The notes under the pieces are model-generated. The model saw only the letters and a list, made by a program, of their open reading frames with translations, was not told the origin of the DNA and ran no database searches. DNA of 64,000 nt from Phaeobacter sp. 11ANDIMAR09 (GTDB taxonomy: Bacteria > Pseudomonadota > Alphaproteobacteria > Rhodobacterales > Rhodobacteraceae). The translations under genes were made by a program, and so were the position numbers. Below, piece after piece: positions 27,954 to 47,845 of this stretch. Numbering within the stretch: the first letter of the stretch is position 1; each line of letters starts with the position of its first letter. The stretch lies in the NCBI RefSeq assembly GCF_001294455.1, contig NZ_LIKT01000015.1:1-64000 (forward strand), written 5' to 3'.

Positions 27954-29063
27954 TTACTGGCAACTGGCCATGGCGGCGCCCAGCTCTTTCAGCAGCGCGG
28001 GATAGAATCCGGCGCCAGGTTCCAAGGCGGCCCCCAATGGGTCGATGACCACGGTTTTGGCGCCGCTACCTTCCAGAACGGTGGCCACCATATCCGGGTT
28101 GAACTGCGGCTCTGAGAAGACGCAAGAAACCTGTGCTTGCTTCACCACCTGCTGGATCTCCGCGATACGCGCAGGGCTTGGGTCTGACGCATCCCCCAGC
28201 GAGATCGCACCAGCGGCATAGATACCGAAGCTGTGCTCAAAGTACTGATAGGCATCATGGAACACCACAAAGCCGCCGTCACGCACGGATTCTAGGCTGG
28301 CTTTGATCTCAGCTTTGACTTCTTTGAGCTCCTGCTTGCCGGCTGCTGCATTTGCCGCATAGGTGGCGGCGTTTTCAACATCATGCTCGGAGAGCTCCGC
28401 CGCAATCACATCAAGCCAAAGCATTGCATTTTCTGGAGAGAGCCAGACGTGAGGATCCAGCCCTTCATGGTCGTGGCCTTCATGACCCGCGTGATCGTGG
28501 CCCTCGTGCTCATCGTCATGACCCTCTTCATGGTCCTCTTCATGGTCCTCTTCATGATCATGCCCGGCCTCGGCATGTGCCTCGCGGTCGTGATCTTCAT
28601 GCTCGGCATGAGCGTCGTGATCATCCCCGTGGTCATCATGATCCTCATGCGCATCGTGATGATCGTCGTCGTGTTGCTCTTCATCCCCGTGATCATGGGC
28701 CTCAAAGCCAACGCCCTCACGGAAAGGAAGCGCCACGCCGCCCTCCAGCTCCAAAAGCTCAACCACATGGGCCTCCGTTGCCAGCTCGTCCACCGGACCT
28801 TCCAACCAAGGGGTCAGTGCTTCGCCGATCCAAAAGACCACATCCGCTTGCGACAGGGTCAGGGCCTCGGAGGGGCGCATTGAGTGGTGATGCGGCGAGG
28901 CGCCGTTTGGAACCACCATGCCTGGCTCTCCAACTCCCTGCATGACTCGGGCGACCAGGCTGTGCACGGGGGCAATATCGGTCGCGACTTTGGGCACATC
29001 TGCCACAGAAACGCTTGCAAATCCCATCAGGGCTGCGACAGAAGTCAGGGGAGTTTTAAGCAT
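27954..29063 (-). CDS. znuA: zinc ABC transporter substrate-binding protein with long His/acidic loop
   Basis: 369 residues: signal peptide (1-21), two ZnuA/TroA lobes, and a His/Asp/Glu-rich insertion at about 122-199. Zinc ligands are in NGASPHHHSMRPS (about 54-64), DPHVWLSP (H205), FHDAYQYF and the late VFSEPQF region. It captures Zn2+ in the periplasm and hands it to ZnuB. The insertion is much longer than in many ZnuA proteins and is built of GHDH/EEDHEEDH-like repeats. Divergent from zur-znuCB over a 117-bp gap with two Zur-box-like sites. A 166-residue open frame on the opposite strand over the loop is an artefact of this codon-repeat region. Confidence 0.95.
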   Translation of the reverse strand: MLKTPLTSVAALMGFASVSVADVPKVATDIAPVHSLVARVMQGVGEPGMVVPNGASPHHHSMRPSEALTLSQADVVFWIGEALTPWLEGPVDELATEAHVVELLELEGGVALPFREGVGFEAHDHGDEEQHDDDHHDAHEDHDDHGDDHDAHAEHEDHDREAHAEAGHDHEEDHEEDHEEGHDDEHEGHDHAGHEGHDHEGLDPHVWLSPENAMLWLDVIAAELSEHDVENAATYAANAAAGKQELKEVKAEIKASLESVRDGGFVVFHDAYQYFEHSFGIYAAGAISLGDASDPSPARIAEIQQVVKQAQVSCVFSEPQFNPDMVATVLEGSGAKTVVIDPLGAALEPGAGFYPALLKELGAAMASCQ

Positions 29064-29072
29064 GGGACTCTC

Positions 29073-29089
29073 ATGTGATTTTATAACAT
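29073..29089. promoter_or_regulatory. Zur box 1 (znuA-proximal)
   Basis: Imperfect 17-bp dyad ATGTGATTTTATAACAT, close to the ATGTTATA-type alphaproteobacterial Zur sites and only 10 bp from the znuA start codon. It should place Zn-Zur over the znuA promoter or start region. Site seen; binding inferred. Confidence 0.7.
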
Positions 29090-29104
29090 CTCACGGCTTG
29101 TTAA

Positions 29105-29121
29105 ACGTCATAGCATAACAT
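29105..29121. promoter_or_regulatory. Zur box 2 (zur-proximal)
   Basis: Second 17-bp dyad ACGTCATAGCATAACAT, of the same form as box 1 and exactly 32 bp further on (three helical turns). It lies 60 bp before the zur start, so the zur-znuC-znuB operon, including zur itself, is probably repressed by zinc-bound Zur. Confidence 0.68.
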
Positions 29122-29180
29122 ATCAAGAGCCAAGTTCGGCAAGCCCCAGGCATCGCCCTTATCAGCGGAGACCCAAGACC

Positions 29181-29669
29181 ATGGATTCCATCGGATTTGA
29201 GCCCCATGACCACACAAGCTGTATTTCCAGCTGCATTGAAACGGTTGATGCCCAGTGCAAGGCGCAGGGGCTACAGTTTACCCCTGTCCGCAAACGGGTC
29301 TTGGAAATCCTATTGCAGGAACACCGGGCTCTGGGCGCCTATGAAATTCTTGATCGTTTGCGCGAAGAAGGACTTGGCTCGCAACCGCCCGTCGCCTATC
29401 GCGCGCTGGACTTTTTGGTGAGCAACGGGTTTGCCCATAAAATCGAACGGCTGAACGCCTTTATTGCCTGCACCCATCCCGGCGAGGATCACGCCCCGGT
29501 GTTCATGATCTGCCGCCTGTGCAAGTCAGTGGCCGAAGCCCAGGCCGTGCCAACCAATGGCCAGTTGGGTCAGGCCGCCCGCGACGCCGGGTTCCAGATA
29601 GAACGCACCGTGGTCGAAGCCGAAGGTCTTTGCCCCAAATGCCAAGAAGCTGCCCATAAATGCAACTGA
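29181..29669 (+). CDS. zur: Fur-family zinc uptake regulator Zur
   Basis: 162 residues. Winged helix about 30-95 (LQFTPVRKRVLEIL, PVAYRALDFLV) and a C-terminal dimer/metal domain. Structural zinc cysteines appear in MICRLCKS and GLCPKCQE; a His/Asp set in CTHPGEDHAP fits the regulatory site. As a Zn-dependent repressor it would bind the two dyads upstream. The stop overlaps the znuC start. Confidence 0.92.
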   Translation: MDSIGFEPHDHTSCISSCIETVDAQCKAQGLQFTPVRKRVLEILLQEHRALGAYEILDRLREEGLGSQPPVAYRALDFLVSNGFAHKIERLNAFIACTHPGEDHAPVFMICRLCKSVAEAQAVPTNGQLGQAARDAGFQIERTVVEAEGLCPKCQEAAHKCN

Positions 29670-30445
29670 TCTCACTTCAGGATCTCTCTGTCAGCTATGG
29701 CGGAAACACGGTTCTGTCGAACGTGACCTTTGGCATCTCTCCCGGAGAAATCGTCACCATCGTTGGCCCCAATGGTTCCGGCAAATCCACCCTGTTGCGC
29801 AGTGTCATCGGGGCGCAGATGCCCAGCAAGGGAACGGTCAATCGAAGCCCGGATCTGCGGATTGGCTATGTTCCGCAAAAACTGCATATCGATCCGACCT
29901 TGCCAATGACCGTGCGTCGGTTTCTCAGCCTGCCGGACCGAGTGTCCAACGCCCAGGCCACCAGCGCCCTGGAACAGGCCGGCGCCGGACAGTTGTCCAA
30001 CCGTCAAATGGCCGATCTATCGGGCGGTCAGTTTCAGCGCGTTTTGCTGGCGCGGGCGCTTTTGTGCCAGCCGCAGCTTCTGATCCTCGACGAGGCCACC
30101 CAGGGGCTTGATCAGCCCGGATCAGCCGCATTTTACCAAAAGATCGAAACCCTGAGGCAAACTCTGGGCTGCGCCATTTTGATGGTCAGTCATGAGTTGC
30201 ATGTTGTTATGGCGGCCTCTGACCGGGTGATCTGCCTCAACGGCCATATCTGCTGCGAAGGCGAGCCTGAGCATGTGGCTTCGGCGCCAGAATACCGGGC
30301 GCTGTTTGGCAGTGGCACCCAGGGCGCGCTGGCGCTCTATCGCCACGAGCACAATCACAGCCACGACCACAGTTGCGGCCATGATCACGGCAAAGACGAG
30401 ACCGGGGGCCAGCACTCTCACCCTGCGCATGAGGCACACAGATGA
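29660..30445 (+). CDS. znuC: zinc ABC transporter ATPase with His-rich tail
   Basis: 261 residues. Walker A GPNGSGKST (about 36-44), ABC signature LSGGQFQRV, Walker B LLILDEATQGLD and the switch His in MVSHELHVV. The last ~35 residues are His-rich (HEHNHSHDHSCGHDHG), a probable zinc-sensing or buffering tail on the cytoplasmic side. ATG overlaps the zur stop by 10 bp and the stop overlaps znuB (ATGA). Confidence 0.95.
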   Translation: MQLISLQDLSVSYGGNTVLSNVTFGISPGEIVTIVGPNGSGKSTLLRSVIGAQMPSKGTVNRSPDLRIGYVPQKLHIDPTLPMTVRRFLSLPDRVSNAQATSALEQAGAGQLSNRQMADLSGGQFQRVLLARALLCQPQLLILDEATQGLDQPGSAAFYQKIETLRQTLGCAILMVSHELHVVMAASDRVICLNGHICCEGEPEHVASAPEYRALFGSGTQGALALYRHEHNHSHDHSCGHDHGKDETGGQHSHPAHEAHR

Positions 30446-31269
30446 TCACACTGTTCGACAGTTTTTTGATCCGCGCAGCCCTTGCAGGAACCGGCGTCGC
30501 CATCGCAGCCGCCCCCCTGGGATGTTTTGTGATCTGGCGCCGCATGGCTTATTTTGGCGATGCAACGGCCCATGCTTCGATCCTGGGCGTTGCATTGGCT
30601 CTGGGGTTCCAGGTGCCGATCTTTGCAGGCGTTTTGATCATTGCCCTTCTGATGGCCACCGCAGTTTCCAGCCTGAGCGGACGGGGCTTTGCCATGGACA
30701 CGCTTTTGGGGGTGCTGGCGCATTCCTCGCTGGCTTTTGGGCTCGTGGCGGTCTCTTTTCTGCAGGGCATCCGCATTGACCTGATGGCCTATTTGTTTGG
30801 CGACATCCTGGCAGTAAGCCGAATAGATCTGGCCGTAATTTGGGGCGGAGCGACCCTGGTTTTATTGTTGCTCTGGGCCAGATGGTCCGCCCTATTGACC
30901 GCCACACTCAGCCCTGATTTGGCCTATGCAGCCGGCATCAACCCCAAACGTGAACAACTGGTGCTGACCGTCGCCCTAGCCCTGGTCGTGGCCGTCGCCA
31001 TCAAAGTTGTCGGAGTCTTGTTGATTTCAGCGCTCTTGCTGATCCCGGCCGCCGCCGCACGTCCCTTTGCCGCGACCCCCGAACGCATGGCCGCGATTGC
31101 TGCTAGCATCGGCGCACTTGCCGCCCTGGTTGGCCTCCAGGCTTCCTTTGTTCTGGATACCCCGACCGGGCCAACAATTGTCTGCGCCGCAGCGGTATTT
31201 TTTGCCCTGACAAATCTGGGAAGTGCGATCTGGAAAAACCGGCTCCCAGCTGTCAGCAATGACCGTTAA
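30442..31269 (+). CDS. znuB: zinc ABC transporter permease
   Basis: 275 residues with about eight hydrophobic segments, an ABC-3 family inner-membrane permease (FVIWRRMAYFGDATAHASILG near the N-terminus; VVAVAIKVVGVLLISALLLIPAA in the second half). Coupled to znuC by an ATGA overlap. Ends 18 bp before the convergent hybrid kinase gene. Confidence 0.95.
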   Translation: MITLFDSFLIRAALAGTGVAIAAAPLGCFVIWRRMAYFGDATAHASILGVALALGFQVPIFAGVLIIALLMATAVSSLSGRGFAMDTLLGVLAHSSLAFGLVAVSFLQGIRIDLMAYLFGDILAVSRIDLAVIWGGATLVLLLLWARWSALLTATLSPDLAYAAGINPKREQLVLTVALALVVAVAIKVVGVLLISALLLIPAAAARPFAATPERMAAIAASIGALAALVGLQASFVLDTPTGPTIVCAAAVFFALTNLGSAIWKNRLPAVSNDR

Positions 31270-31287: not shown

Positions 31288-33579
31288 TCAGGTCTGACCT
31301 GCTCTCAGATCAGCGGGAAGTTCGTCCAGAGTATCAGCGCCCTTGTGAAGGGCCTCCAGTAGCGCTTGTTTGTTGATCGGCTTGCTAAGAAAATCATCCA
31401 TGCCCGCCGCCAGGCATTCTTCCCGATGCGCCTCCAGCGCATTGGCGGTCAGGGCGATGATATGACAACCAGAGCTATGGGACGCAGATTCGATCTCCCG
31501 AATTTTCATCGTCGCTTCAACCCCGTCCATCACCGGCATCATCATGTCCATCAGGATGATATCCGGCTGCACTTCTCGAAATTTCTCAACCGCCTCGGCG
31601 CCGTTGGCCACAATAGTAATGTCAAACCCCGCATCCTTGAGCATCCGGGTCACCACCAACTGATTGGTCCGGTTATCCTCGGCGATGATCAATTTGAGGG
31701 AATGGATGGCCTGTCGCGCCTCTTGACGCATGACAACCGCGCTTCGCCCGGACTGCTCAAGCTTGAGTGCCCGCCGCAGCACCTGTTTCAACTGTGCCAT
31801 TCGAACAGGTTTCAACACAATGTCGCGGATCTTCGCCCGGTGGTCATTTGACCGGGCAGCGGATTGATCCGCCGAGGACAGCATGACAATTGGCATTGTT
31901 GCATAATCGGGGATTGCTCGAATTTGCCGCGCCAGCGCGCTGCCATCAACCTGCGGCATTTGATAGTCCAGAATGACAAAATTCAAGCGTTGCGAATCCA
32001 AACGCAGATCCGCCATGATCTCCAAGGCCTGAGCGGCGCTACCGGCCTCAACGCAGTTCACACCCCAGTCGCGCAACCGCTCGCTCAGGACCGCCCGGTT
32101 CAATTCCAGATCATCCACAATAAGTCCTGTCATACCTTGCAAGGCATTAAACGCCACTTTGACGTCAGCGATCTGGTCGGTCAGCGGCAATGGCAAATCG
32201 ATGGTAAAGACGGACCCTTTCCCCGCCTCCGACTGCACCGAAATCCGCCCCTTCATCAACTCTATCAGGCGCGCCGAGATCGCCAGGCCAAGTCCCGTAC
32301 CTTCAAAGCTGCGTGTGGCGCCGCTGTCCACCTGTTCAAAGGCGCTAAAGACTCTATCAAGCCGGTCTTCGGGAATGCCAATCCCGGTGTCGGTGACACG
32401 GATCACGAGATCATAGCCATTGGCATCTCTGTGCCCTGAGACATCAATATAGACGTAGCCATGGTCGGTGAACTTTACCGCATTGCCAATGATATTGGTA
32501 ATAACCTGGCGGATCCGACCAACATCTCCTTCAAAAAAGATTGGAAGATCAGGGTCATACCTCAGAATGATCTCAATGCCCTTATTGCTGGCCTTGGGGG
32601 CGAGCAGTGTGACCACGTCTTCGACAGCCGCCAAGAGGTTGAACGGGAAGGGGTTCAGCTCAACTTTGCCTGCTTCGATTTTGGAGAAATTGAGGATATC
32701 ATTGATAATTGTCAGCAGCGCTGCGCCAGATTTGGAAATGGTTTCCGCATAGACACGCTGATCCTCATCCAGGTCGGTTTCCATGATCAGCTCTGCCATA
32801 CCAATCACACCATTCATTGGCGTGCGGATTTCATGACTCATGTTTGCCAGGAATTCCGACTTGGCCTGGTTGGCGATATCTGCCTCTTCACAGGCCCGCT
32901 GCAAAGCGGTTTCACGTTCATCCCGCTCAACAAAAGTGTCTTCCAGAACACCAACCGAATAGTTCAGCGCCCAGAATTCCCGCGAGGCATACCATGGGAG
33001 CTTGCCAGCCTTCCCCCGCGCGCCCAAGAGAGCATTCGACATCCGGCGATGGATGGTTCTGAGCGGGTGCAGAGCCAGCATATGCACCAAGGCCAAAACA
33101 AGGGCCGACAGGCCCGCGACGGCTAGAACCGTCCACATAATGGTATACCGGACCTTTTCCTGAACCATGGCCTGGCCTTCCAGCATAGACCATCGCACGA
33201 CCATTGTGCCGAATTCGAACCCCTCCATTTCAACTGGTTGTTCGTAGGTGACAAACTCTTCTACAGCATCGGTTTCCCGCCGTTTGGCCGTTGCGATTGT
33301 GACGCCGTCGTTGTTCAGAATTTGGATGGAGAGAATTTTAGGCGTGCGGGCCAGGGCTTCGTGAAGCCCTGTTTCCAACACCGGCACATCTTCGACAATG
33401 ATGGATTCCAGCATCAGACCACTGAGCAGTGAAATCGTCAGCCCTGCCTGTTCGCTCAATTGGTCGCGCAGCTGGATGCTCTCGGTACGGCGCGCAACAG
33501 CCCCGACAACCAGCCCCACCAAAAGGGCGGCCAGGGACAGCGAAAGCACAATCTGAAACAGGACACTGGAGCGTTTCAT
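31288..33579 (-). CDS. membrane hybrid histidine kinase with two receiver domains
   Basis: 763 residues: TM1 (about 8-28), a ~115-residue periplasmic sensor, TM2 (about 148-170), a linker, HisKA with phospho-acceptor H249 ([12 protein letters not shown]), HATPase_c ([29 protein letters not shown]), then two receivers; the second has a clear DMMMPVMDG phosphorylation site, the first [10 protein letters not shown]. It follows a PhnD-like binding protein gene by 18 bp on the same strand, so the binding protein probably presents the ligand to the periplasmic sensor, as TorT does for TorS. The phosphorelay output is not encoded alongside. Confidence 0.9.
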
Positions 33580-33597: not shown

Positions 33598-34482
33598 TTA
33601 GAAGCTTTGGCTTTGTTCGATGGCTTCTCTGATCAGATCGTAATCTGAATCTTCGCTCGCCAGAAATCCATTCTTGGAGACGCGCCGGACAATCTCTTCA
33701 TTTTGAACGGACAGCATCACCTCCTGCATGGCCTGCAGAAACCGCGGGTCCAAATCGGCAGAGGCCAGCCAGGGCTTTGTGACATTGTCAAATGAGGTCA
33801 AAGCCCGGATCGGCACGCCTTTGGCAACCAGCTTTTTATAGGTGCTTTCTTTCAAGGCTCCTGCTGCATATTTTCCGGCACCGACGGCTTCGCCCACCAG
33901 ATCATGTCGCCCCAGATACGCAAAGCTGTGCAGATCCTCACCCGAGATCCCAACATCAAGCAATTGCGCCTGAGCCAGATATCGACCAATTGTTGACAGC
34001 TCATCACCAAAGGCAAAGGTCAGCCCAGACAGCTCTTCCAGGGATTGGATCGGGCTATCGCGATGGACAACAATCACGCCTTTGAAGCGTTTTTGGCCCT
34101 TTTTGGACTCCATGGCCACAATGCTGATATCCGGGTTGAGCTCCTTGACCACCACATAGGACGCCGGCCCAAACCGGGCAAAATCCACCTCACCCTCGGC
34201 AAGCTGGCGAATACCTTCCGCGTATTCCTTGGCGATTGTGAGCTTGATCGTGACCTTCTCTCCCAACCGCTCGGACATCCGATCCGCAAGAAAGGTAAGG
34301 AAAGGCCTGTATTTGCGCACGGTTTCGGTGGGTTTGTCAGCGGCATAGGTGCCAAAGGTCAGCGTGATCCCAGCACCTGCATCATTTGGTGCAAAGCTCA
34401 GAGCAAACAAAAACAAAACGCCAAGAAGCCCCCGTCCCAGTCTGTGAACACTTGAGAAAATTAAGGTAATGAAGTTCCGCAT
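33598..34482 (-). CDS. PhnD/SsuA-type periplasmic binding protein
   Basis: 294 residues from the ATG at 34482, preceded by GGAGG; the frame is open to 34548. A hydrophobic signal (about 5-38, ending DAGAG) leads into a phosphonate/phosphite-binding-like fold: LTFGTYAADKPTE, EGEVDFARFGPASYV, and SLEELSGLTFAFGDELST. No ABC permease or ATPase is nearby; instead a hybrid kinase gene follows at once, so this is likely a sensory ligand-binding subunit, not a transport subunit. Ligand unknown; phosphonate, phosphite or another oxyanion is possible. Confidence 0.83.
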   Translation of the reverse strand: MRNFITLIFSSVHRLGRGLLGVLFLFALSFAPNDAGAGITLTFGTYAADKPTETVRKYRPFLTFLADRMSERLGEKVTIKLTIAKEYAEGIRQLAEGEVDFARFGPASYVVVKELNPDISIVAMESKKGQKRFKGVIVVHRDSPIQSLEELSGLTFAFGDELSTIGRYLAQAQLLDVGISGEDLHSFAYLGRHDLVGEAVGAGKYAAGALKESTYKKLVAKGVPIRALTSFDNVTKPWLASADLDPRFLQAMQEVMLSVQNEEIVRRVSKNGFLASEDSDYDLIREAIEQSQSF

Positions 34483-34704
34483 AGGTAAGCCTCCTAGCTC
34501 GTGTACTGCGCGCCAAAGGCACATGCATTCTAGCTTATCGCTCACCAAATGCGTGTATGACGTTAATTTTTTCGCTTTCTTCCGTCAATTTTAAATGAAA
34601 GGCCGGATCGCATACCGCACTTAACGGTTCCGTAATACTTTAGGTATTTTTTCATAAAAATGTCACAACTATAAAGAATCCCTAAACAGACAGCAGGTCT
34701 CTCA

Positions 34705-37700
34705 GTGCAAACACCGGCCCCTTCTTCCCACAACAACAAACGAAAATTCTGTTTTGCCTCTCTTTTGGCTGCAATCCTTTTGGCTATCCCCATGAAAGCT
34801 CTGGCCATTCCCTCTCCGGAACTGGTCATCGGCTCGGTGACATCCCTGTCTCAGGTTTTTGCTGTGGGTCTTGCAATGATTTCCGGGGCCGGCGCACTTT
34901 TGGCAACCAAACTGGGGTTCAAGCCAAGAGCCGCAACACAGCGCTATCCGGTCCGTCTCATTGGCTTGCTCGTGCTGTTTGTGACCGGCTTGGTAGCTGC
35001 AAACTACTGGCAGTACAGCAGCTATAGAGCCACAGAACAGACACGCCTTCAGGCGACCTTGTTTCGTCCGGCGCAGTTCGCCGGAACTGAGATCAAGGAC
35101 GACACGCTTAAGGAAACTAGCTTTTCCAAACAGGAAGAAAACCCGCTGGCCATTTCCACTGATCAGGCTGCAGCTCTGTTGACATCGGGGGACGCCGCCT
35201 TCTTTGACATCCGCGAAACCGGCGAAAACGCCATGGGCAGCCTGCCGGGCGCCACGCACGTCCGATTTCCTGATTTTCTGCAGTCTCGCCCCCTGCAGCC
35301 CGGACAGCGGGCGGTGGTTTTTTGCCACAACGGCAACCGTAGCTCCGAGACCTGCGCCGAACTGGCAAAGCTGGGCATCGATTGCAGCTTTATTGCCGGC
35401 GGGATCGAGAAATGGATCGTCGAAGGACGCTCCTTTAGCGATGCCGAGGTTGAGACGCTGGCCGACCTGCGCGCCATTCCAGACTATGTCAACAAGGACA
35501 CCCTGCTAAGCACCGCTGATTTCACGACACTGATCGAAACCGAAGATCTGCAGATCGTCGACACACGCTATCCCGGCGATTTTGAGGCCGGTCACCTACC
35601 CGGTGCCATCAATATCCCCATTCGCGCCTTGCCGACTGATGACCTGATGCGCAGGATCGCTGCATTGGAGGACAAGCCGACCCTCACGGCCTGCTATGAT
35701 CGGCGCAGCTGCTTCATGGGGCAGGTTCTGGGGCTGGAATTGGTCCAGCAGGGGGTCGACTACCTGGGACGTTATACCTTGCCCTGGGAGTATTTTATTG
35801 CCCCCGCTGCCAAACCCCATGTCCAGGACTGGCTGGCCGCGCAAAACCAGACCTATTGGCAGCGGGCTGTCGCAGCAGTCACCTCGGCTTTGCTCTGGAG
35901 CCATGCACATAGCCATCTCTTGTTGGGGCTTTTTGCCCTCTCCCTGCTGACCCGCCTGTTGGTTCTACCGGTTGCGTTGAAATCGGAACGCGACCAGATC
36001 ATCACCCACAACAGTGCCGAGGAGCTGGCGACACTCAAATCAGAACTGGCCCAGGATCCGGTGCGCCGCGCCCGTGCCATCCAGGCGTTCTATGCCTCCA
36101 AGGGGCTGACGCCGCTGCGCAATCTCAGCGCCCTGTTGTTTTTGCCGGTGATGATGGTGGGGGTCTCTGCCGCCGGAGAGGCCAGCGGGCTGCTGTCAAT
36201 CTCAATGCTATGGATCGACGATTTAGGCCTGCCAGATCCGGCCTTTGCCCTGCCGCTGATGTTCTGCGCTTTGGCCGCGATCTACCTGACCTGGGCAGTC
36301 GCTAAGACGGCACGGCAAATCAAGCTTTGGCTCTTTATGGGTCTGCCCCTTCTCTTTGCCATGGTCTTTAGCCTCAGCGCCGCCGCCAATGCCTATCTCT
36401 GTTTCAGCCTCAGCCTGCTGCTGCTGCAGCGTGCCTATGTGACCGGACTGCACAAATCTCTGAAACACCAGCTGGATCTTTGGCGCCAGAAACGTCAGTT
36501 GGCACAGCTGCCTGCCGGGGTCATCCCCATGGGCTTTAGCGAAGAACTGGCACAGGCGGGCAATAAGGCGCTGCGGCTGTCCGTGATGAAAACAGCCGGG
36601 CTGCCCGTGCCCGATGGTCTGGTGCTGCGCCAGGAGGCCATCGCTGATTTTCAACAGATGTCCCTTCCCCAGCAAGAGCGCTTTGCGGCTCAGATCTGGC
36701 AGCTAATAGCAGAAAAACCCTGCGCCGTGCGCAGCAGCGCCAGCAATGAAGATGGTGCCGAGCAGAGCTTTGCCGGGGTGTTTGAGTCCGAGCTGGATGT
36801 GACCGGCGACACCCTGCGCGGCGCCTTGAACAGTGTGGTGGCAAGCTTTTCTTCAGAACGGGCCGCCAGCTACGACCGGCAGGCCCAGGATACATCTGCC
36901 GCCAATGTACTGGTTCAGCAGATGGTGCAGGCTGACTATGCCGGCGTCTTGTTTACACAGGACCCCAATGCCCCCGGAATGACCATGGTGGAATGGGTAA
37001 AGGGCTGTGGCGAAGATCTGGTCTCAGGCCGGGTGACACCTGTGTCTTTGCGCTTTGGACGCTCCTCCGGCCGACCCGCATTTGAGGATCAGGATCAAAC
37101 GCTGGATCTGGCGCCTTTGCTGGCCCTTGCGCGCCGGGTCGAAGCCCTCTTTGGCGGCCCTCAAGATATCGAATGGGCCTATGCCGATGGTGGGTTTCAG
37201 ATCCTGCAAAGCCGCGACATCACCACACTGGCCCATGGTCCCGACGCGGAACAGATCCGGCTGACCGAATGGCGCGCCGTGCTGGACCGCTTTGGCGATC
37301 GTGATCCCGATGCGATGATCCTGGAACAGGATGAAATGTCCGAAGTCCTGCCGCGCCCAACGCCCATGTCCTTCTCTCTCATGAGCAGCCTTTGGGCACC
37401 CGGCGGCAGCGTGGACTACGCCTGTCGCGCGCTTGGCGTCCCCTACGGGCTGCCGGAAGGCCGCGACGGTCATCTGGTCAACCTCTTTGGCAAAACCTAT
37501 GTGGATGCCGAGCTCAAGCGGCAAATGACACTCAAACTCTCCAAATCCAAGGCCAAGCAGCTGCGCCGGCTAGCGCGCCCGCTGGTCAGGGATTTTCACG
37601 ATCAAACCCTGCCAATAATCGCAGATCGTCTGGCGATCTGGCAAGCGCTGGACTATGCCGCCCTGCCCCAGCACAAGCTGATCGAGATGATCCAGACCCT

Positions 37701-38721
37701 CGTCAGTTTCTTTGCCCATGACATCTACGTCGAGGCCGAAAAGATCAATATTCTGGCCGGTTTCACCATGAACGAAGCCAGAGCCGCAACCGCAGGCGAT
37801 GTCACACTGCGCAAGCATCTGATGTTGGCAGAACTGCCCCATGCCCCCTCTTCGCTGTTGAGCGCCTGCCAAGGCAATCGAGATCAGGCCCTGGCCCTGA
37901 TGGGGCATCGCTCGATCTTTGACTACGAGCTCAGCTCGCCCCGCTACAGCGAGGCCCCTGCCCTGTTGTGGCCGCTGCTGGACAACCCAATCTCGCAGAT
38001 CTCAGAACTGGGGCAGCTGCCTGCCAATCTGCCCCATGATCTGAAAGACTGTATTTCTCTGGCTCTGACCTATCAGGATCTCAAGGAACAGGCCAAACAC
38101 GAAGCGCTGCGTATTTTGGCAGAGCTGCGCCGGGCCCTGCAGGCCTTGGGCGCGGGTACGGGGCTGAATGATCTTATTTTCCAGTTCACACTGGAAGAAT
38201 TACAGCACTGCGACTGGTCGGACGCGCAGGCTTTGCTGGACATGGCAAAGGCACGTAAAACCAAGGAGGAGCTGCGCAAACCCTCGGCTCCAAGCCAGGT
38301 ACAACTGACACTGCGGGATTGCGAGTTGCTGTCCCTCGGGGCGCAGACTGCCTTGGCTGAGGGCGATCTGGGTGGCACCTGCGTTGCGGGCAGTGGCACC
38401 AGAACAGGGCGCGCCTATTGGGTCGTGGATGAAACAGCAACAGGGCCAGAAGCATTCGATGGCTTCCAGGATGGCGATATTCTGGTGTGCCACATGATCA
38501 ATCCAGCCTGGTTGCCCTATGTCCAGCGTTCCGGCGCGGTGCTGAGCGAGGTGGGCGGCTGGTTGAGCCACATGGCGATTGTAGCCCGTGAAAAACACAT
38601 CCTGATGCAGGTCGCCTGCAAAGGGTTGAACCAGATCGAAACCGGAGCCTGGGTCACCGTCGCCGAGGACGGCAGCATCACCCTTGAGGAGGGCGAAGAT
38701 CTGAAATCCGCCACAGGCTGA
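34705..38721 (+). CDS. rhodanese-rhodanese-YidC/Oxa1-dikinase fusion protein
   Basis: 1338 residues in one frame, GTG start with AGG eight bases upstream. Order: hydrophobic N-terminus (about 12-34), two more hydrophobic segments (about 38-66, 80-102), rhodanese 1 (about 145-250; Cys207 in FCHNGNRS), rhodanese 2 (about 262-370; Cys330 in ACYDRRSC), a YidC/Oxa1-like core with five membrane segments (about 395-585; R417 in LLTRLLVLPV, a C1-like loop, LWIDDLGLPDP), an ATP-binding domain like PEP synthase or rifampin phosphotransferase (about 610-840; VRSSASNEDG, FTQDPN, IEWAYADGGFQILQSRD), a middle region with GHRSIFDYELSSPRYSE, and a phosphohistidine swivel domain with H1289 in GGWLSHMAIVARE. 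Topology by analogy with YidC puts the rhodaneses outside and the kinase in the cytoplasm. Catalytic residues of every module look intact. Substrate and function are unknown; divergent from the PhnD-like/kinase pair. Confidence 0.85.
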   Translation: MQTPAPSSHNNKRKFCFASLLAAILLAIPMKALAIPSPELVIGSVTSLSQVFAVGLAMISGAGALLATKLGFKPRAATQRYPVRLIGLLVLFVTGLVAANYWQYSSYRATEQTRLQATLFRPAQFAGTEIKDDTLKETSFSKQEENPLAISTDQAAALLTSGDAAFFDIRETGENAMGSLPGATHVRFPDFLQSRPLQPGQRAVVFCHNGNRSSETCAELAKLGIDCSFIAGGIEKWIVEGRSFSDAEVETLADLRAIPDYVNKDTLLSTADFTTLIETEDLQIVDTRYPGDFEAGHLPGAINIPIRALPTDDLMRRIAALEDKPTLTACYDRRSCFMGQVLGLELVQQGVDYLGRYTLPWEYFIAPAAKPHVQDWLAAQNQTYWQRAVAAVTSALLWSHAHSHLLLGLFALSLLTRLLVLPVALKSERDQIITHNSAEELATLKSELAQDPVRRARAIQAFYASKGLTPLRNLSALLFLPVMMVGVSAAGEASGLLSISMLWIDDLGLPDPAFALPLMFCALAAIYLTWAVAKTARQIKLWLFMGLPLLFAMVFSLSAAANAYLCFSLSLLLLQRAYVTGLHKSLKHQLDLWRQKRQLAQLPAGVIPMGFSEELAQAGNKALRLSVMKTAGLPVPDGLVLRQEAIADFQQMSLPQQERFAAQIWQLIAEKPCAVRSSASNEDGAEQSFAGVFESELDVTGDTLRGALNSVVASFSSERAASYDRQAQDTSAANVLVQQMVQADYAGVLFTQDPNAPGMTMVEWVKGCGEDLVSGRVTPVSLRFGRSSGRPAFEDQDQTLDLAPLLALARRVEALFGGPQDIEWAYADGGFQILQSRDITTLAHGPDAEQIRLTEWRAVLDRFGDRDPDAMILEQDEMSEVLPRPTPMSFSLMSSLWAPGGSVDYACRALGVPYGLPEGRDGHLVNLFGKTYVDAELKRQMTLKLSKSKAKQLRRLARPLVRDFHDQTLPIIADRLAIWQALDYAALPQHKLIEMIQTLVSFFAHDIYVEAEKINILAGFTMNEARAATAGDVTLRKHLMLAELPHAPSSLLSACQGNRDQALALMGHRSIFDYELSSPRYSEAPALLWPLLDNPISQISELGQLPANLPHDLKDCISLALTYQDLKEQAKHEALRILAELRRALQALGAGTGLNDLIFQFTLEELQHCDWSDAQALLDMAKARKTKEELRKPSAPSQVQLTLRDCELLSLGAQTALAEGDLGGTCVAGSGTRTGRAYWVVDETATGPEAFDGFQDGDILVCHMINPAWLPYVQRSGAVLSEVGGWLSHMAIVAREKHILMQVACKGLNQIETGAWVTVAEDGSITLEEGEDLKSATG

Positions 38722-39819: not shown

Positions 39820-41427
39820 CTAGCTTTTTGCCGCGGCAAAAACAGGCGCGGCAATTTCAACAATCCGAGGCCCCTGCCCCGCGCTGCGCGCCATGGCGGC
39901 CGAAATTTCTGCGGGATCGTCTGACACGGCGAGGTGTGGAATACCAAAGCACCGCGCGGTATCGCAAAATCTGGGCGGTGTCGGATCACAACCGATAACC
40001 TCCACACCAACTTCCTGCATTGAGGTGGCAATCTCGCGGTAGCCTTGGTTGTTCCAGATCACAAAGGTGATCGATAGGTTTTCATCCACCGCAGTCATGA
40101 TCTCTGGAAGCGAAAACTGTGCGCCACCATCGCCGACAATGCAGATCACCGGTGCCTCTGGTGCAGCGATGGCTGCGCCGATGGCGGCAGGGATGCCATA
40201 GCCTAGCGCCCCGTATCCCGTTGCCGCATTAAACCAGCCGCCGGGGCGATCGTGGTCATAGTATAGATTTCCGGCATAGATCGGCTGGGTGGAATCTCCC
40301 ACCATCAAGCTGTTGGGTATGGCATCGCGCACAGCATCCAGCACCGCGACCTGCGCCCGGTAATCCTCCCCTATTTCCGCAAGCGCCGCTGCGCGGGTCT
40401 CTGCCGCTCGCGGCGCCCCATCCACGCCTGAACAGTTGCTCGGCAAAGCCGCAAGCAGAGCAGCGGCAAAGCCCCCAACCTCTGCCCGAATTGGGAGGCG
40501 CGCCGGATGACGCTCCAATTGCTTTTCGCAAATATCCACCCGGATCAACTGGCGCATCTGCGGCCACGCGCCAGTGGCATACATATCATAGTCGGTGGGT
40601 CCGAATTCGGTTCCCAAAGCAAGGACCACATCTGCCCCCGCGATCAAACCACGCACCGAAGCAAGGCTGGGACTTGCCGGCACACCAAGCGGGTGCTGAT
40701 ACATCAGCCCCCGACCATTTGTGGTTTGGACCACTGGCGCATTCAGGCGCTCTGCCAGGAGACGGAGGGCCTCCCCCGCCCGTCTGGCGCCGCCCCCTGC
40801 CAGAATGAGCGGGTTCTTTGCTGTGGCCAGCAATTGCGCGGCCTGTTGCACGAGCGCGGCCTCTACAGCGGGCTGCGCGACCCTGGTGGGTGTCGCAAGT
40901 TCCGCGGCCGCACTGCCGGCAACATCCAGCGGAATCTGAATGTGGGTTGGCCCTGGGCGCCCCTCTGCAAAAGGGGAAAATGCCTTGTTTAGAGCAGAAT
41001 TCAGATCCGTAGGCTTGGCCACGTGCTGCGAGGTCAGAGCCACCGTTTGGGCAAGCCCCTGCTGGTCGGGCAACTCATGCAAATGCCCCATGCCCTGGCC
41101 GAGGCTTGCCTGAGCGTTAACACCAGAAATCACCAGCATTGGCACAGAATCCGCCCGCGCCTGCGCCATCGGTGTGAGCGTATTGGTCAAACCGGGCCCG
41201 GTAATCACAAAGGCCACGCCGGGCTTGCCGGACACCCGTGCATAGCCATCCGCCATAAACCCGGCGCCCTGTTCGTGGCGCGGGGTCACATGTCGAATAC
41301 CCGAGGCTGCAAGACCACGATAGAGCTCGACCGTATGCACACCGGGGATGCCAAAGACGCAGGTGACATCCCGCGCAGCCAACCCATCCACCAAGGTTTC
41401 GCCGATAGTTTTTTCGCGATCCATCAT
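39820..41427 (-). CDS. aruI: ThDP-dependent 2-oxoacid decarboxylase, AruI-like
   Basis: 535 residues of the acetolactate-synthase-like ThDP superfamily: N-terminal PYR domain with catalytic Glu in PRHEQGAGFMADGYAR, a middle domain, and a C-terminal PP domain with the ThDP/Mg motif GDGGAQFSLPE...WNNQGY. With the aminotransferase upstream it matches the AruH-AruI pair, where AruI decarboxylates 5-guanidino-2-oxopentanoate (2-ketoarginine) to 4-guanidinobutanal. ATG at 41427 overlaps the aruH stop (ATGA). The FAD-dependent synthases of branched-chain synthesis are longer and pair with a small subunit, absent here. Confidence 0.77.
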   Translation of the reverse strand: MMDREKTIGETLVDGLAARDVTCVFGIPGVHTVELYRGLAASGIRHVTPRHEQGAGFMADGYARVSGKPGVAFVITGPGLTNTLTPMAQARADSVPMLVISGVNAQASLGQGMGHLHELPDQQGLAQTVALTSQHVAKPTDLNSALNKAFSPFAEGRPGPTHIQIPLDVAGSAAAELATPTRVAQPAVEAALVQQAAQLLATAKNPLILAGGGARRAGEALRLLAERLNAPVVQTTNGRGLMYQHPLGVPASPSLASVRGLIAGADVVLALGTEFGPTDYDMYATGAWPQMRQLIRVDICEKQLERHPARLPIRAEVGGFAAALLAALPSNCSGVDGAPRAAETRAAALAEIGEDYRAQVAVLDAVRDAIPNSLMVGDSTQPIYAGNLYYDHDRPGGWFNAATGYGALGYGIPAAIGAAIAAPEAPVICIVGDGGAQFSLPEIMTAVDENLSITFVIWNNQGYREIATSMQEVGVEVIGCDPTPPRFCDTARCFGIPHLAVSDDPAEISAAMARSAGQGPRIVEIAAPVFAAAKS

Positions 41428-42608
41428 GCCGCCCCCTTGTTCAAGTTTTGTGCATGGGAAATTAAGCGTGTGAGCGCGGTTTCAAAGGCTGCATCCTCAA
41501 TGGTCAATGCAATCCGCACCCAAGAAATCAAACTGTCGCTGAAGGCAGACCCTGGCATGACCGCAACCCCATGGTCCAACAGATCCCAGGCATAGGCATC
41601 GCCGGTCATCCCCGTGGCTGACACATTGATCATGGCAAACATCCCCGCCTCGGGCCGGTGCACCTGCAGGGCCGTTTCCGCCTCCAACCGTCTCGCCAAC
41701 AACTCTGCACGTCGGCTGAAGCGTTCGCTCATCCCTTTGGAAACAGAGGACCCTTCACGGATCGCCACTTCCGTCATATCCGCGATGAAGGGCTGGTTGC
41801 CAAAGAGCATAGTTTCCGAATAGGGCAGCAGCGCGTCGCAGAAGTCCTTGGAGCCAACGCACCAACCGCTGCGGAACCCTGGAGACGCATGGGATTTAGA
41901 GATGGAGGACACCGCAATAACTCGTTCGGCATAATCCGGCAGGGACAATGGCGAGACAAATTCTGAGCCTTCAAAAACCAGCTGTTCATAGACTTCATCC
42001 GAAAGGATCCAGAAATCGTGAACCCGCGCCAGCTCGCAGAGCTCTATCAGCTCATCCCTGCCTAAGATGGCACCGGTTGGATTGTGGGGACTGGTCAGCA
42101 ACAGGGCGCGTGTCCGGGGCGTGATTCGAGAGGCAACATCCCTAGCCTGCATGCGAAATCCGTTTTCAGGGTTAAGCGGTACCGGCACTATGGTCGCACC
42201 ACTGGCAGCGACTACCCCCTCATAGGTGGCATACATAGGATCACCGACCAGCACCTCGTCACCGTGTTGAGCCACCCCCATCATGGCAGCAAACAACGCG
42301 GTCTGGGTTCCGGGGAAACACAGAAAATTATCGGGCTCAAATGCTTGGCCGCGGCTGGCGGTATAGCTGTCGGCCAAGGCTTGGCGCAGATTGAGTTCCC
42401 CGCGCCCGTCGGAATAACCGGTTCGACCCGCCCGCATCGCAGCGATGGAACAGTCCATCAATTCCGCAGGAACCGGAACATCGGGCTCGCCGATGGTCAT
42501 TTCGATAATATCCGCACCTGCTGCCACACGCGCGCGTGCGGTCAAATGCAAATCCCATTTTGCCCCCCCCAAGGAGGCCAATCGTGACGTCACAGCCGTG
42601 GTTTTCAT
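41424..42608 (-). CDS. aruH: arginine:pyruvate transaminase-like class I aminotransferase
   Basis: 394 residues from the ATG at 42608 (GAGG 11 bases upstream); a GTG at 42632 is an alternative. Fold type I PLP enzyme: IGEPDVPVP, TSPHNPTGAILG, PLP lysine in SSISKSHASPGFRSGW, and WVRIALT for the carboxylate Arg. Length and the coupled ThDP decarboxylase fit AruH, which transaminates L-arginine to 2-ketoarginine. Upstream lies a striking 16-bp inverted repeat (42685-42724). Confidence 0.77.
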   Translation of the reverse strand: MKTTAVTSRLASLGGAKWDLHLTARARVAAGADIIEMTIGEPDVPVPAELMDCSIAAMRAGRTGYSDGRGELNLRQALADSYTASRGQAFEPDNFLCFPGTQTALFAAMMGVAQHGDEVLVGDPMYATYEGVVAASGATIVPVPLNPENGFRMQARDVASRITPRTRALLLTSPHNPTGAILGRDELIELCELARVHDFWILSDEVYEQLVFEGSEFVSPLSLPDYAERVIAVSSISKSHASPGFRSGWCVGSKDFCDALLPYSETMLFGNQPFIADMTEVAIREGSSVSKGMSERFSRRAELLARRLEAETALQVHRPEAGMFAMINVSATGMTGDAYAWDLLDHGVAVMPGSAFSDSLISWVRIALTIEDAAFETALTRLISHAQNLNKGAA

Positions 42609-42684
42609 ATCGGTTTCCACCTCATTGAGCACAAGTCTTGTTTCTGCGGCGACTTTTCAGGTCGGGAATGTTTTCAAGACCAGT

Positions 42685-42812: not shown

Positions 42813-43496
42813 TCAGCTGGTCACAAGGATGTCGGAAATTTCGGGGTCAATATCACGGCAGGCCGCCAGCAGCCGTGGCTTTAAATGCGACAGAACATAA
42901 TTGGCATGAAACCGACTGGGGGCTATCAAAGTAAGCCGAGCCCCTGCCCGTTCGCTACGGTTCAACGCATCTATCCAGGCGGTATAGATAGCGGGATCGT
43001 CCCGATGCAAAATGGCCTTGGCAAGGCTCCATTCGTTGCCATCGCTCAGATCTGGTGCAGCAGCAACCTGTCCGGTGCGCAGAGGCACCACATTGGTTGG
43101 CTCAGTTTCCTGACCATTCATCCGATGTTCAAAGTCAGGGCCGACATGTGCCCAGACGGTACGAGTATCCTCGTGGATGCGATCCAAGTCCAGCCCGTGT
43201 TCGCTAACCCTGCCTCTTACCCCTTGCCGTTTGACGATCAACCAGCCCATGGCGCGCAGCTTGGCCATCTCGCGCTTGACAGTGCGTTCATCAACCGTCC
43301 AGAGCCGGGCAATTTCACGCTGACCAACTGCCAGCTCATTGCGGGACCAATTGTAACGGGCGGTGACCAGAGTCATGAACCGAAGAACCAGTTTCTGCGA
43401 TGCCTTTGGCTGTGACAGAGCAAAGGCACCTAGGGCGGTCAGAATGTCGTACTTCACTACCGACGCATGTCGCCCGGCGGGTCGTTGCACCTGCAT
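42813..43496 (-). CDS. DnaA-like plasmid replication initiator
   Basis: 227 residues. N-terminal part has a winged-helix-like segment (REIARLWTVDERTVKREMAKLRAMGWLIV split at about 60-90). The C-terminal ~75 residues (from NEWSLAKAIL; TAWIDALNR; LTLIAPSRFHANYVL) resemble the N-terminal domain of chromosomal DnaA. AAA+ and domain IV are absent. This matches the 'DnaA-like' replicase class known from Roseobacter extrachromosomal replicons. It is divergent from parAB across a 612-bp dyad-rich gap, the standard layout for such modules. Assignment rests on pattern recognition; a profile search would confirm it. Confidence 0.75.
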   Translation of the reverse strand: MQVQRPAGRHASVVKYDILTALGAFALSQPKASQKLVLRFMTLVTARYNWSRNELAVGQREIARLWTVDERTVKREMAKLRAMGWLIVKRQGVRGRVSEHGLDLDRIHEDTRTVWAHVGPDFEHRMNGQETEPTNVVPLRTGQVAAAPDLSDGNEWSLAKAILHRDDPAIYTAWIDALNRSERAGARLTLIAPSRFHANYVLSHLKPRLLAACRDIDPEISDILVTS

Positions 43497-44108
43497 GGCT
43501 CTTTTGGTCCTTCTAGATCTACCCTGCCCATTGTGAAATGGTTTGATCCCAGCCTGGCTTCATATGCAAAGCCAGAATTAAGATTCAGGGTCGGCTGCCT
43601 CAGTCTTTCGGGTTGTTCCCGATTTACGTTGGCTCCTACTGCAGGAAACTCAACGCTCTTTACTCAATGTAGATGATTTGCGTCCTTGGGGTCGATTCTG
43701 TCAAGCACTGAGTTGTTTCAGCCTCTGATCCAATTCCAAAATAATGATAGAAATTTGGTATCAATGGTATTGGGGGACATCCTGGATGTCACCTTAATGG
43801 TGAAAAATGTCCCCCAATGGGTGGGGGTTTGCTGTAGGCTGTCACCCTATATTTGGCGCCGCGCCCCGTCTTTGGCCCATCCTTTCGCAAGAGAGAATGG
43901 ATCGGACTTGCAGGCGAATCGCGAATCACAGGAACCCCCTGCCCTGTTGAAATTATGGCCTTTTCTGTACTGTGTCCCCGCGGGGACAGGACGCTTTTTT
44001 TCAGGATAATAGGTTTTGCGTTTTTTGCAATTACGGCGTAAATGAGTATTGAGGAAAAATTAGCGTCCTGTGCAAAGGGCGAGATACAGCGAAAAGCGAG
44101 CGACAGTC
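43497..44108. other. dyad-rich intergenic region, candidate replication origin
   Basis: 612 bp without a credible gene, between divergent rep and parA. It holds an inverted repeat CTGGCTT-N8-AAGCCAG (43554-43575), TCGGG-N5-CCCGA (43608-43622), GACATCC-T-GGATGTC (43776-43790), the 12-bp arms ATTGGGGGACAT (43769-43780) and ATGTCCCCCAAT (43807-43818), a parS palindrome (43973-43988), and an AT-rich stretch towards parA (about 43990-44060). No iteron array and no consensus DnaA box were seen. Origin function is inferred from position. Confidence 0.5.
43973..43988. other. parS: parS-like centromere site 1, upstream of parA
   Basis: Perfect 16-bp palindrome TGTCCCCGCGGGGACA, 120 bp before the parA start. 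The same sequence recurs at 45089 and 47810 and, with one change, at 46574, all within 4 kb around parAB. Recurrence of a long palindrome beside parAB is the basis for calling it parS. Confidence 0.8.
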
Positions 44109-45413
44109 ATGTTCACCCATGAAGACCTGGCAAAGTTACAGGCCCAATCTTTGAAAATGCAGAGCTGGATTCGACAGCAAACCTTCTCTCCCGAGATGGA
44201 AAAGACCCTGCGGCGGTTCTCCAGCTGGGAAGTGGCCGAACTGATCTTTAAAGTGAACCAATCCACGTTGCGTGGACGGCTTGCGGCGGATCCCTCGCTG
44301 CCACAGGGGCATGTAGAAGAGGACGGTCGTCAGCGCTGGTATTCGTTGGAAGAGATTAACGAGCTGCGTCGACGCATCAAGATCAATCGCAAGAGCCTGA
44401 TGCCGCCACGCCCCGAAGGTAAGCGCGCCCTGCGGGTGGCGATCTCCAACTTCAAAGGTGGTGCAGGCAAATCCACAGTGGCATTGCATTTTGCCCATGC
44501 TGCTGCTCTGGATGGCTATCGGGTTCTCTGTGTGGATTTTGATCCGCAAGCGACGCTGTCACATTCCATGGGGCTGAGTGATGTGACCGAGGACTATACG
44601 GTCTGGGGCATCATGGCGCGGGATCTGGTGCGCGAAACTGAGCGGATGAATGCCTCGACCCGCGGGGCTGAGACGGGGGCCGCCCTGCCCGAGCGCGTTC
44701 TGCCCGAGGCCATCACCGGGATGGGTTTGCAGGATCTGCGCATCAACGATTTCATCAAACCGACCAGTTGGCCAACCATTGATCTGGTGCCAAGCTGCGC
44801 CAATGCTGCTTTCGTTGAATTCGCCAGCGCCCAGTACCGTCATCTTAATCCCGAGTGGTCCTTCTTTGCGGCTGTGTCGCGCTACCTCGATCAGGTCTCG
44901 GCAGATGATTACGACATGATCATTTTTGATTGCCCCCCCGCCATTGGCTACCAGTCGATGAATGCGGTCTTTGCCGCCGACATGCTCTATATCCCTTCGG
45001 GGCCGGGGTACTGGGAATACGATTCGACCACCTCTTTTATTGGACAGCTGTCGGAGGCGCTGGAGGATCTATCGGCTTTCAACGGTGTTGTCCCCGCGGG
45101 GACATTCACCCTGCCGAAGGCGTTCCTCGATGTGCGGTTCCTGTTGACCCGATATGAGAGCGGCAATGATTTGCACCGTGCCATGCGCGATGCCTTTATC
45201 AAAGTCTTTGACGGCCGCATGGCGGACCACCCAATCGAAATGACCCGCGCCGTCGAACAATCCGGGCGGTTCCTCAGTTCGATCTACGAGATCGACTACC
45301 GCGATATGACACGCGAAACCTGGCGCCGGGCACGGGCCTCCTTTGATCAGGCCTATGAAGAATTCAAAGGCTACGCCGCTGAGGCCTGGGACAAGATGGA
45401 GGATAGATCATGA
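44109..45413 (+). CDS. parA: partition ATPase ParA with N-terminal HTH
   Basis: 434 residues from the ATG at 44109 (a GTG at 44070 is in frame). N-terminal region (about 30-100) resembles the HTH of large plasmid ParA/RepA proteins. Deviant Walker A in SNFKGGAGKSTVALHFA (about 115-131), the following FDPQATLSHSMG, and Walker B in MIIFDCPPAIGYQS. It powers segregation of ParB-parS complexes and probably represses its own operon. A parS palindrome lies inside the gene at 45089-45104. Its stop overlaps parB. Confidence 0.92.
   Translation: MFTHEDLAKLQAQSLKMQSWIRQQTFSPEMEKTLRRFSSWEVAELIFKVNQSTLRGRLAADPSLPQGHVEEDGRQRWYSLEEINELRRRIKINRKSLMPPRPEGKRALRVAISNFKGGAGKSTVALHFAHAAALDGYRVLCVDFDPQATLSHSMGLSDVTEDYTVWGIMARDLVRETERMNASTRGAETGAALPERVLPEAITGMGLQDLRINDFIKPTSWPTIDLVPSCANAAFVEFASAQYRHLNPEWSFFAAVSRYLDQVSADDYDMIIFDCPPAIGYQSMNAVFAADMLYIPSGPGYWEYDSTTSFIGQLSEALEDLSAFNGVVPAGTFTLPKAFLDVRFLLTRYESGNDLHRAMRDAFIKVFDGRMADHPIEMTRAVEQSGRFLSSIYEIDYRDMTRETWRRARASFDQAYEEFKGYAAEAWDKMEDRS
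45089..45104. other. parS: parS-like site 2, inside parA
   Basis: Exact copy of the 16-bp palindrome within the parA reading frame, where it encodes part of GVVPAGTF. Retention of a full palindrome under coding constraint argues for function. Confidence 0.75.
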
Positions 45414-47664: not shown

Positions 47665-47809
47665 GGCAAAATACTCATACAAGAATGATGAACTAGGGTA
47701 GCCTCGACTTAGGGCCGGGTTTGGGCTCTTCTCTTGATTAACGAAAATCCTAGGGAAAAATGCAAGTATTGCGTAGCCTCGGCCAAATAAATGCCAAGCG
47801 TTCGTTGGG

Positions 47810-47825
47810 TGTCCCCGCGGGGACA
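47810..47825. other. parS: parS-like site 4, upstream of the caspase-like gene
   Basis: Exact copy of TGTCCCCGCGGGGACA, ending 20 bp before the GTG start of the next gene and so close to or within its promoter and leader. Binding or spreading of ParB here could affect that gene's expression. Confidence 0.75.
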
Positions 47826-47845
47826 GATATTGGAGTATTACTGTA

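Follow-up and report, generated by a model that had tools for sequence, protein, structure and literature searches.

The window analysed here, a stretch of 64,000 nucleotides from contig NZ_LIKT01000015.1 of Phaeobacter sp. 11ANDIMAR09 (assembly GCF_001294455.1), carries a gene for a single protein of 1338 residues, in which two rhodanese domains, a YidC/Oxa1-like membrane core and a dikinase of the rifampin phosphotransferase (RPH) type follow each other in one chain. Divergently from this fusion lie the genes of a periplasmic substrate-binding protein and a hybrid histidine kinase, hereafter the sensor pair (Table 1). The domain order had been proposed in an earlier sequence-only reading of the locus, and was borne out by a Pfam domain search. 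The key residues named at that time, i.e., Cys207 and Cys330 of the rhodaneses, R417 of the core, the ATP-grasp motifs and His1289, proved invariant among the aligned relatives, all conservation counts of the fusion given below being those of 72 aligned sequences. The combination is genuine and conserved, and sensor genes of its own go with it.

Table 1. Coordinates of the fusion gene, its domains, its neighbours and its divergent relatives (window positions, unless a locus label is given)
Feature	Position	Strand	Remarks
Fusion gene, 1338 residues	34705..38721	+	signal-like segment, two transmembrane helices, two rhodanese domains, YidC-like core, RPH-type dikinase
Hydrophobic N-terminal segment, residues 14-38	34744..34818	+	hydropathy; signal-peptide-like, judged by eye; followed by conserved motif PSPELVIGS
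Two N-terminal transmembrane helices, about residues 48-70 and 81-103	34846..35013	+	hydropathy; positive loop in between
Rhodanese domain 1, residues 152-238	35158..35418	+	loop CHNGNR, Cys207
Rhodanese domain 2, about residues 266-365	35500..35799	+	second Pfam stretch; atypical loop CYDRR(S/G)CF, Cys330 and Cys336; limits estimated from alignment
YidC/Oxa1-like core, residues 408-579	35926..36441	+	profile and model; groove Arg417
ATP-grasp domain (PPDK_N), about residues 614-845	36544..37239	+	Pfam; K621, R676, E823, Q835, R837
Helical middle domain, residues 852-1222	37258..38370	+	presumed substrate domain; RPH chains align in fold, partly in sequence
Swivelling phosphohistidine domain, residues 1254-1319	38464..38661	+	Pfam; His1289 at 38569-38571
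Promoter box TTAAC-N6-(G/T)TAA	34621..34636	+	CtrA-like; conserved upstream of the fusion
PhnD/PtxB-like periplasmic substrate-binding protein	33598..34548	-	Pfam; divergent from the fusion
Hybrid histidine kinase, two receiver domains	31288..33579	-	Pfam and NCBIfam; adjoins the binding protein
Zinc-uptake genes (ZnuA-type, Fur-type, ATPase, permease)	27954-31269		beyond the kinase
Two-gene form	L167:159-4129; L169:3-3199; L168:6342-7229	-	two genomes of another class
Very divergent single-chain relative	L176:6786-10844	+	similarity to second rhodanese and middle domain

Domains of the fusion protein

The window protein scored 37.1 bits against the 60KD_IMP profile (cut-off 35), which upholds the earlier assignment of the region around residues 395-585 to the YidC/Oxa1 family; a distant relative (L121) reached 32.6 bits, under the same cut-off. 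The five-helix core fold with its basic groove residue is present, the model match to E. coli YidC covers residues 375-580, and all 72 sequences keep both the arginine of the groove and the aromatic Y564. The groove of YidC faces both lipid and cytosol. The fusion differs from YidC/Oxa1 insertases in that two rhodaneses stand in place of the periplasmic P1 domain and a dikinase is attached at the C terminus, and also in that it coexists with a normal YidC. The latter was present in 20/20 relatives (own genome included), eight of which gave a fusion hit. The hypothesis that the fusion acts as the housekeeping YidC was rejected because the genome holds a separate, normal one.

Structure was modelled in two separate pieces, residues 36-600 and 595-1338, with low predicted local distance difference test (pLDDT) values at model residues 1-44 (residues 36-79 of the protein). 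According to hydropathy, more hydrophobic stretches occur between residues 402 and 574, at the helices of the core, and basic loops lie after residue 70, in the first loop of the core and after residue 580. The positions of these loops would put the rhodaneses outside and the dikinase inside, so that hydropathy and positive-inside charges together suggest periplasmic rhodaneses and a cytosolic dikinase, in line with the topology that had been expected by analogy with YidC.

The first rhodanese domain bears a canonical CxxxxR loop, CHNGNR, with C207 and R212 in 72/72 sequences, and its fold agrees with that of solved rhodaneses (root-mean-square deviation of 1.2 to 1.6 over 99 residues among the best matches listed), persulfide-enzyme rhodaneses being among the closest. 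The second domain departs from this pattern: in its loop CYDRR(S/G)C the cysteine is invariant and no arginine stands fifth after it. Compared with periplasmic and tandem rhodaneses, the canonical loop and fold of domain 1 are shared, whereas the two-cysteine loop CYDRR(S/G)CF of domain 2 and the embedding of both domains in a polytopic membrane protein are not. The invariance of both loops in the 72 sequences argues that sulfur handling matters in this group.

The C-terminal half has the layout of RPH, with an ATP domain, a middle domain and a His domain in this order, the catalytic histidine and no phosphoenolpyruvate (PEP) barrel. RPH is a soluble enzyme without membrane or rhodanese parts, its middle domain binds a bulky hydrophobic molecule, and RPH-type dikinases act on small molecules. 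Foldseek ranked RPH first for the dikinase half, and among the matches listed only RPH chains align over at least 500 residues, middle domain included, the likeness in layout being to the Listeria monocytogenes enzyme (5hv1, 5hv3, 5fbs). A profile of the middle domain (13 rows) found no match among PDB sequences, but one built from 59 rows over the entire dikinase half extended into the middle domain of RPH. The score with the RPH family model NF041857 was 134.8 bits, below the cut-off of 999. The fusion therefore shares the layout of RPH but is not filed under that name, and nothing here implies activity on rifampin. PEP synthase (pyruvate, water dikinase) was rejected as an identity, with 116.9 bits for a TIGR01418 cut-off of 739.75 bits and no C-terminal PEP barrel; indeed, no Pfam match to the barrel family was obtained in the fusion up to E = 1. 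The absence of the barrel and the closer likeness to RPH than to PEP synthase had both been noted in the first reading.

A family with linked sensor genes

Relatives were gathered from 84,980 species genomes, where 134 pattern hits yielded 95 relatives and 80 loci were kept. The full chain lies in a single frame in 71/80 loci, with 38 to 82% identity to the window protein; it is cut by contig ends in 7/80 and bears one in-frame stop in 2/80 (L101 and L114, both environmental genomes). Of these stops, at L101:6203 and L114:10916, one falls where the YidC core ends and the other where rhodanese 2 ends; they may be real or errors. By record titles, 64/80 loci belong to Rhodobacterales; the titles of the others include Hyphomicrobiales, Afifella, Methyloligella and Rhizobiaceae, and once each Ramlibacter and Nocardioides. 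The latter record, L061 (JAHVJD010000008.1), titled Nocardioides marinus, bears a Rhodobacterales-type locus and its title is probably wrong. Counting the genome of the window, a full-length fusion was found in 8/12 genomes of the genus and in 9/295 genomes of the family, a scan that scored just the two best first-look candidates per genome, so that absence there is not proof. Among 182 matching plasmid records, 81 cover at least 80% of the fusion protein. At E 1e-100 or better there are 82 plasmid records, 59 of them from Phaeobacter and 17 from Leisingera, which are hence not independent. In the plasmid matches listed, coverage of at least 80% comes as a single tblastn piece, and the protein is annotated as PEP/pyruvate-binding or rhodanese-like, or the record is unannotated. 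The fusion is thus a family rather than a single oddity.

The sensor pair is separated from the fusion by 156 bp. By tblastn, the binding protein and the kinase were each found in 59/80 loci; the gene caller gave 53/80 each (47 in the same divergent position, 6 on the opposite side of the fusion), an undercount due to frames picked on the wrong strand at some loci. Among the 295 family genomes, the binding protein was detected at E 1e-50 or better in 10, including 9/9 with the fusion and 1/286 without, two weak matches (28 and 29% identity) being counted as absent (Fisher p = 2.4e-16, a value that ignores shared ancestry). The sole exception, G089, has the pair and no fusion by profile recheck, its best YidC hit lying on a 624-residue frame that is most likely normal YidC. 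In G120, pair and fusion lie on different contigs, both near contig ends, and may be neighbours; G019 is the only genome that shows the pair away from a fusion whose neighbours are known.

The best PDB match of the binding protein was the phosphite protein PtxB (1.5e-23), followed by others down to HtxB; ArrX and AioX matched at 4e-9 and 9.1e-5, respectively. The motifs FGPxSY, ST and LGxHD are common to PtxB and the binding protein, and are kept in the 54 aligned binding proteins at no less than 93% per position. According to PMC5908839, AioX and ArrX work with a neighbouring histidine kinase and AioX binds arsenite through Cys106. The fusion-linked pair resembles this arrangement in that a PhnD-fold binding protein is encoded beside a histidine kinase, but its best match is PtxB, its kinase is a hybrid with two receivers, and the neighbouring gene is the fusion instead of an arsenic molybdoenzyme. 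An arsenite-binding cysteine like that of AioX is also missing, as the binding protein has cysteines at residues 8 and 10 only, ahead of a mature part that has none (a comparison of composition, with no residue alignment to AioX). Overall, the sensor pair points to a small oxyanion as the controlling signal. Near the fusion of six distant loci, a protein of one other cluster was found, and the three that were profiled (L118, L128 and L132) are PstS-like binding proteins; that of L118, the sole one compared, is closest to phosphate binders in the PDB. The PstS-like gene is followed by a HAMP-PAS-GGDEF-EAL protein in L128 (5097-8442, +) and by a chemoreceptor in L132 (14476-16958, +). In these distant members, judging from the profiles, a different predicted oxyanion-type binder stands in for the PhnD-type protein, together with signalling proteins of other kinds in the membrane.

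A middle-domain profile matched 5/398 genomes of the phylum, three in the window's own family and outside it only G551 and G429. Further scans with middle-domain profiles matched 3/385 genomes of the own class and 2/78 of the class of G551, which is probably Zetaproteobacteria. In G551 and G429 the system takes a two-gene form, a YidC-like gene overlapping a gene with PPDK_N and mobile His domains. The YidC-like gene has, by eye, a signal-like segment, N-terminal helices and a periplasmic region. Its YidC match is over the cut-off in L169 (37.4 bits) and below it in L167 (24.1 bits), the dikinase gene of L169 runs off its contig, and flagellar genes lie near both loci. Alignment of the two-gene form with the fusion by hhalign spanned the second periplasmic domain and the core (probability 94.2, E 1.1e-7). 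However, Pfam detected no rhodanese in the two-gene form, whose periplasmic region has one cysteine only, at its very start, and lacks the rhodanese-loop cysteines. In the very divergent single-chain relative found in genome G880, BLAST similarity to the second rhodanese (1e-8) and to the middle domain (9e-8) of the fusion is retained, with no cysteine between residues 102 and 528. Since neither relative has the rhodanese cysteines, the pairing of YidC and dikinase appears broader than rhodanese chemistry, and the YidC-like part with its RPH-type dikinase looks like the core of the system.

Promoter box and further neighbours

The box upstream of the fusion was found at exactly N6 in 39/72 upstream regions, whereas no other same-strand spacing between 2 and 15 gave more than 5 and shuffles averaged 0.35; because the upstream regions are related, this count overstates the evidence. 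On the reverse strand smaller peaks occurred, up to 10/72 at spacer 9. The fuller pattern TTAAC-N6-(G/T)TAA(C/T) occurs once in the window, at the box itself, with 0.05 expected. CtrA sites are given as TTAA-N7-TTAAC (PMC4046655) and TTAAC-N5-GTTAAC (PMC7232146), from which the box shows two and three differences, respectively. It resembles a CtrA site and is put forward as a candidate only.

Among the zinc-uptake genes, tblastn found the permease in 42/80, the ATPase in 44/80 and the Fur-type regulator in 41/80 loci; for the zinc-binding protein it returned 0/80 versus 29 by the gene caller, and the tblastn figure is not trustworthy. Of the 19 full-length loci with less than 46% identity, two match the ATPase alone and the others have none of these genes. 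As they are nearly absent from these loci, the zinc genes are read as shared gene order of closer members, a zinc link being also possible. The RpiR/SIS regulator (20), the thiamine-diphosphate enzyme (7), the aminotransferase (13) and RepA (23 of 80 loci) are likewise missing from the 19 distant loci. In the window, the thiamine-diphosphate enzyme, encoded within 39820-42632 (-), matches 5-guanidino-2-oxopentanoate decarboxylase over the cut-off, and the best NCBIfam match of the aminotransferase in the same segment is GntC, well below cut-off. A plasmid or chromid replication block follows at 42813-46543, with a weak DnaA N-terminal match (-) and RepA/ParA-type and ParB-type genes (+). Near these partition genes, a caspase-fold Peptidase_C14 gene (47846-49363, +) is divergent from a two-domain OmpA/YceI gene (46624-47964, -); OmpA-family and caspase-family genes also lie side by side in L034 and L035. 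A role in anti-phage defence was rejected, as PADLOC recognised neither the fusion nor the binding protein, and the kinase matched three models in its receiver region only.

Possible functions of the system

The reading that we favour, at somewhat less than an even chance, is that of a sensor-linked inner-membrane dikinase of the RPH type acting on a membrane-borne or membrane-crossing substrate, to which a periplasmic sulfurtransferase has been added. The ATP domain would phosphorylate His1289, which would swing to the middle domain and hand the phosphate to a small molecule, with release of adenosine monophosphate (AMP) and inorganic phosphate. Meanwhile, the YidC-like core would keep the dikinase at the membrane and probably open its lipid- and cytosol-facing groove to the substrate, the two periplasmic rhodaneses would add, carry or sense sulfane sulfur, and the phosphite-type oxyanion-binding protein and the hybrid kinase would control expression or activity. 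A substrate located at the membrane is the most economical reason for a dikinase to need a membrane location. What this scheme predicts is the topology, the activity, a substrate that is hydrophobic or membrane-borne, the direction in which the coupling runs and regulation of the fusion by the sensor, whereas domain order, predicted folds, invariant catalytic residues, family and sensor co-occurrence are established.

Several points weigh against it. The sensor pair was found nearby in only 5/19 full-length loci below 46% identity; among the distant loci without it, several end near a contig edge and others have other neighbours. No neighbouring pathway names a substrate, the commonest further neighbours being the zinc-uptake genes, and no activity, substrate or phenotype is on record for the fusion. 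To our knowledge, YidC cores are insertases and not routes for small molecules. The likeness of the linked sensor to phosphite and phosphate binders fits sulfur chemistry poorly. Besides, the copy of P. inhibens DSM 17395 (PGA1_RS19240) sits on a curable plasmid of 262 kb, so that the fusion is non-essential in the laboratory; in passages of two papers that carry locus tags of the P. inhibens plasmids (PMC5421792, PMC5653290), the sole gene of that plasmid named is another one, for pipecolate oxidase.

It is unlikely that the fusion is instead a specialised insertase, in which the core would insert or fold one client, the rhodaneses would act as a chaperone-like replacement of P1 and the dikinase would phosphorylate the client or a bound cofactor as a control. 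Such a role would agree with the YidC fold, groove arginine and Y564 retained in the core, and with the two-gene form, where this core is kept too, with an arginine in the matching position. However, no client gene was recognised among the neighbour clusters that were profiled, a subset of the total, the host already has a normal YidC, and dikinases of this type work on small molecules.

Less likely still is a transmembrane sensor-effector, whose rhodaneses would respond to external sulfane sulfur, cyanide or redox state, whose YidC-like helices would relay the signal and whose dikinase would make a phosphorylated messenger or modified metabolite. The strict conservation of both loops, the atypical one included, would be expected in such a case, as would the three kinds of signalling gene nearby (a hybrid kinase among close members, a GGDEF-EAL protein or chemoreceptor among the distant ones profiled). 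Nevertheless, the genome already devotes a separate binding protein and kinase to sensing, and the two-gene form does without the loop cysteines.

A single-chain group translocation, in which a small molecule would be captured or sulfur-modified by the rhodaneses, pass through the YidC-type groove and be trapped in the cytosol by the AMP-releasing dikinase, is improbable. If true, it would be, as far as we know, the first case of a YidC fold transporting small molecules, and ATP-driven vectorial phosphorylation of a new type.

Least probable among the functional proposals is a system for sulfur assimilation or detoxification, with periplasmic sulfur transfer as its main task and a dikinase that phosphorylates the acceptor, retaining it in the cell. 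The tandem rhodaneses with invariant cysteines and the persulfide-enzyme folds closest to domain 1 speak for it. Yet the lack of these cysteines in the two-gene form implies that sulfur handling is not the heart of the system; this lack and the phosphite-type binding protein weigh against sulfur being central, and the neighbours profiled, which are part of the total, included no gene for sulfur oxidation or sulfate. Finally, a joining of two or three genes by sequencing or assembly error, a doubt raised in the sequence-only reading and fed by the two loci with an in-frame stop, is refuted by the many single-frame loci and plasmid records and has virtually no probability left. The structural part of that reading has therefore stood, whereas its functional idea, namely a coupling of external sulfur chemistry to phosphorylation or the phosphorylation of something handled by the groove, is now one of several; the sensor pair, the two-gene form and the family status lie beyond what it saw.

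As the sequence-only reading had supposed, no description of this domain order was found in the open-licence literature. No kind of system known to us or met in the searches combines these parts, although each of them is clearly related to a known family. If the favoured reading is true, an insertase fold has become part of an enzyme that handles sulfur on one face of the membrane and transfers phosphate on the opposite face. Transposon mutants and a plasmid-cured strain of Phaeobacter inhibens exist (PMC5421792). With such culturable marine hosts, the sensor pair and the two-gene form, what YidC-like folds do besides insertion becomes testable. Specialists in YidC or in dikinases would find this architecture, and how strictly it is conserved, unexpected.

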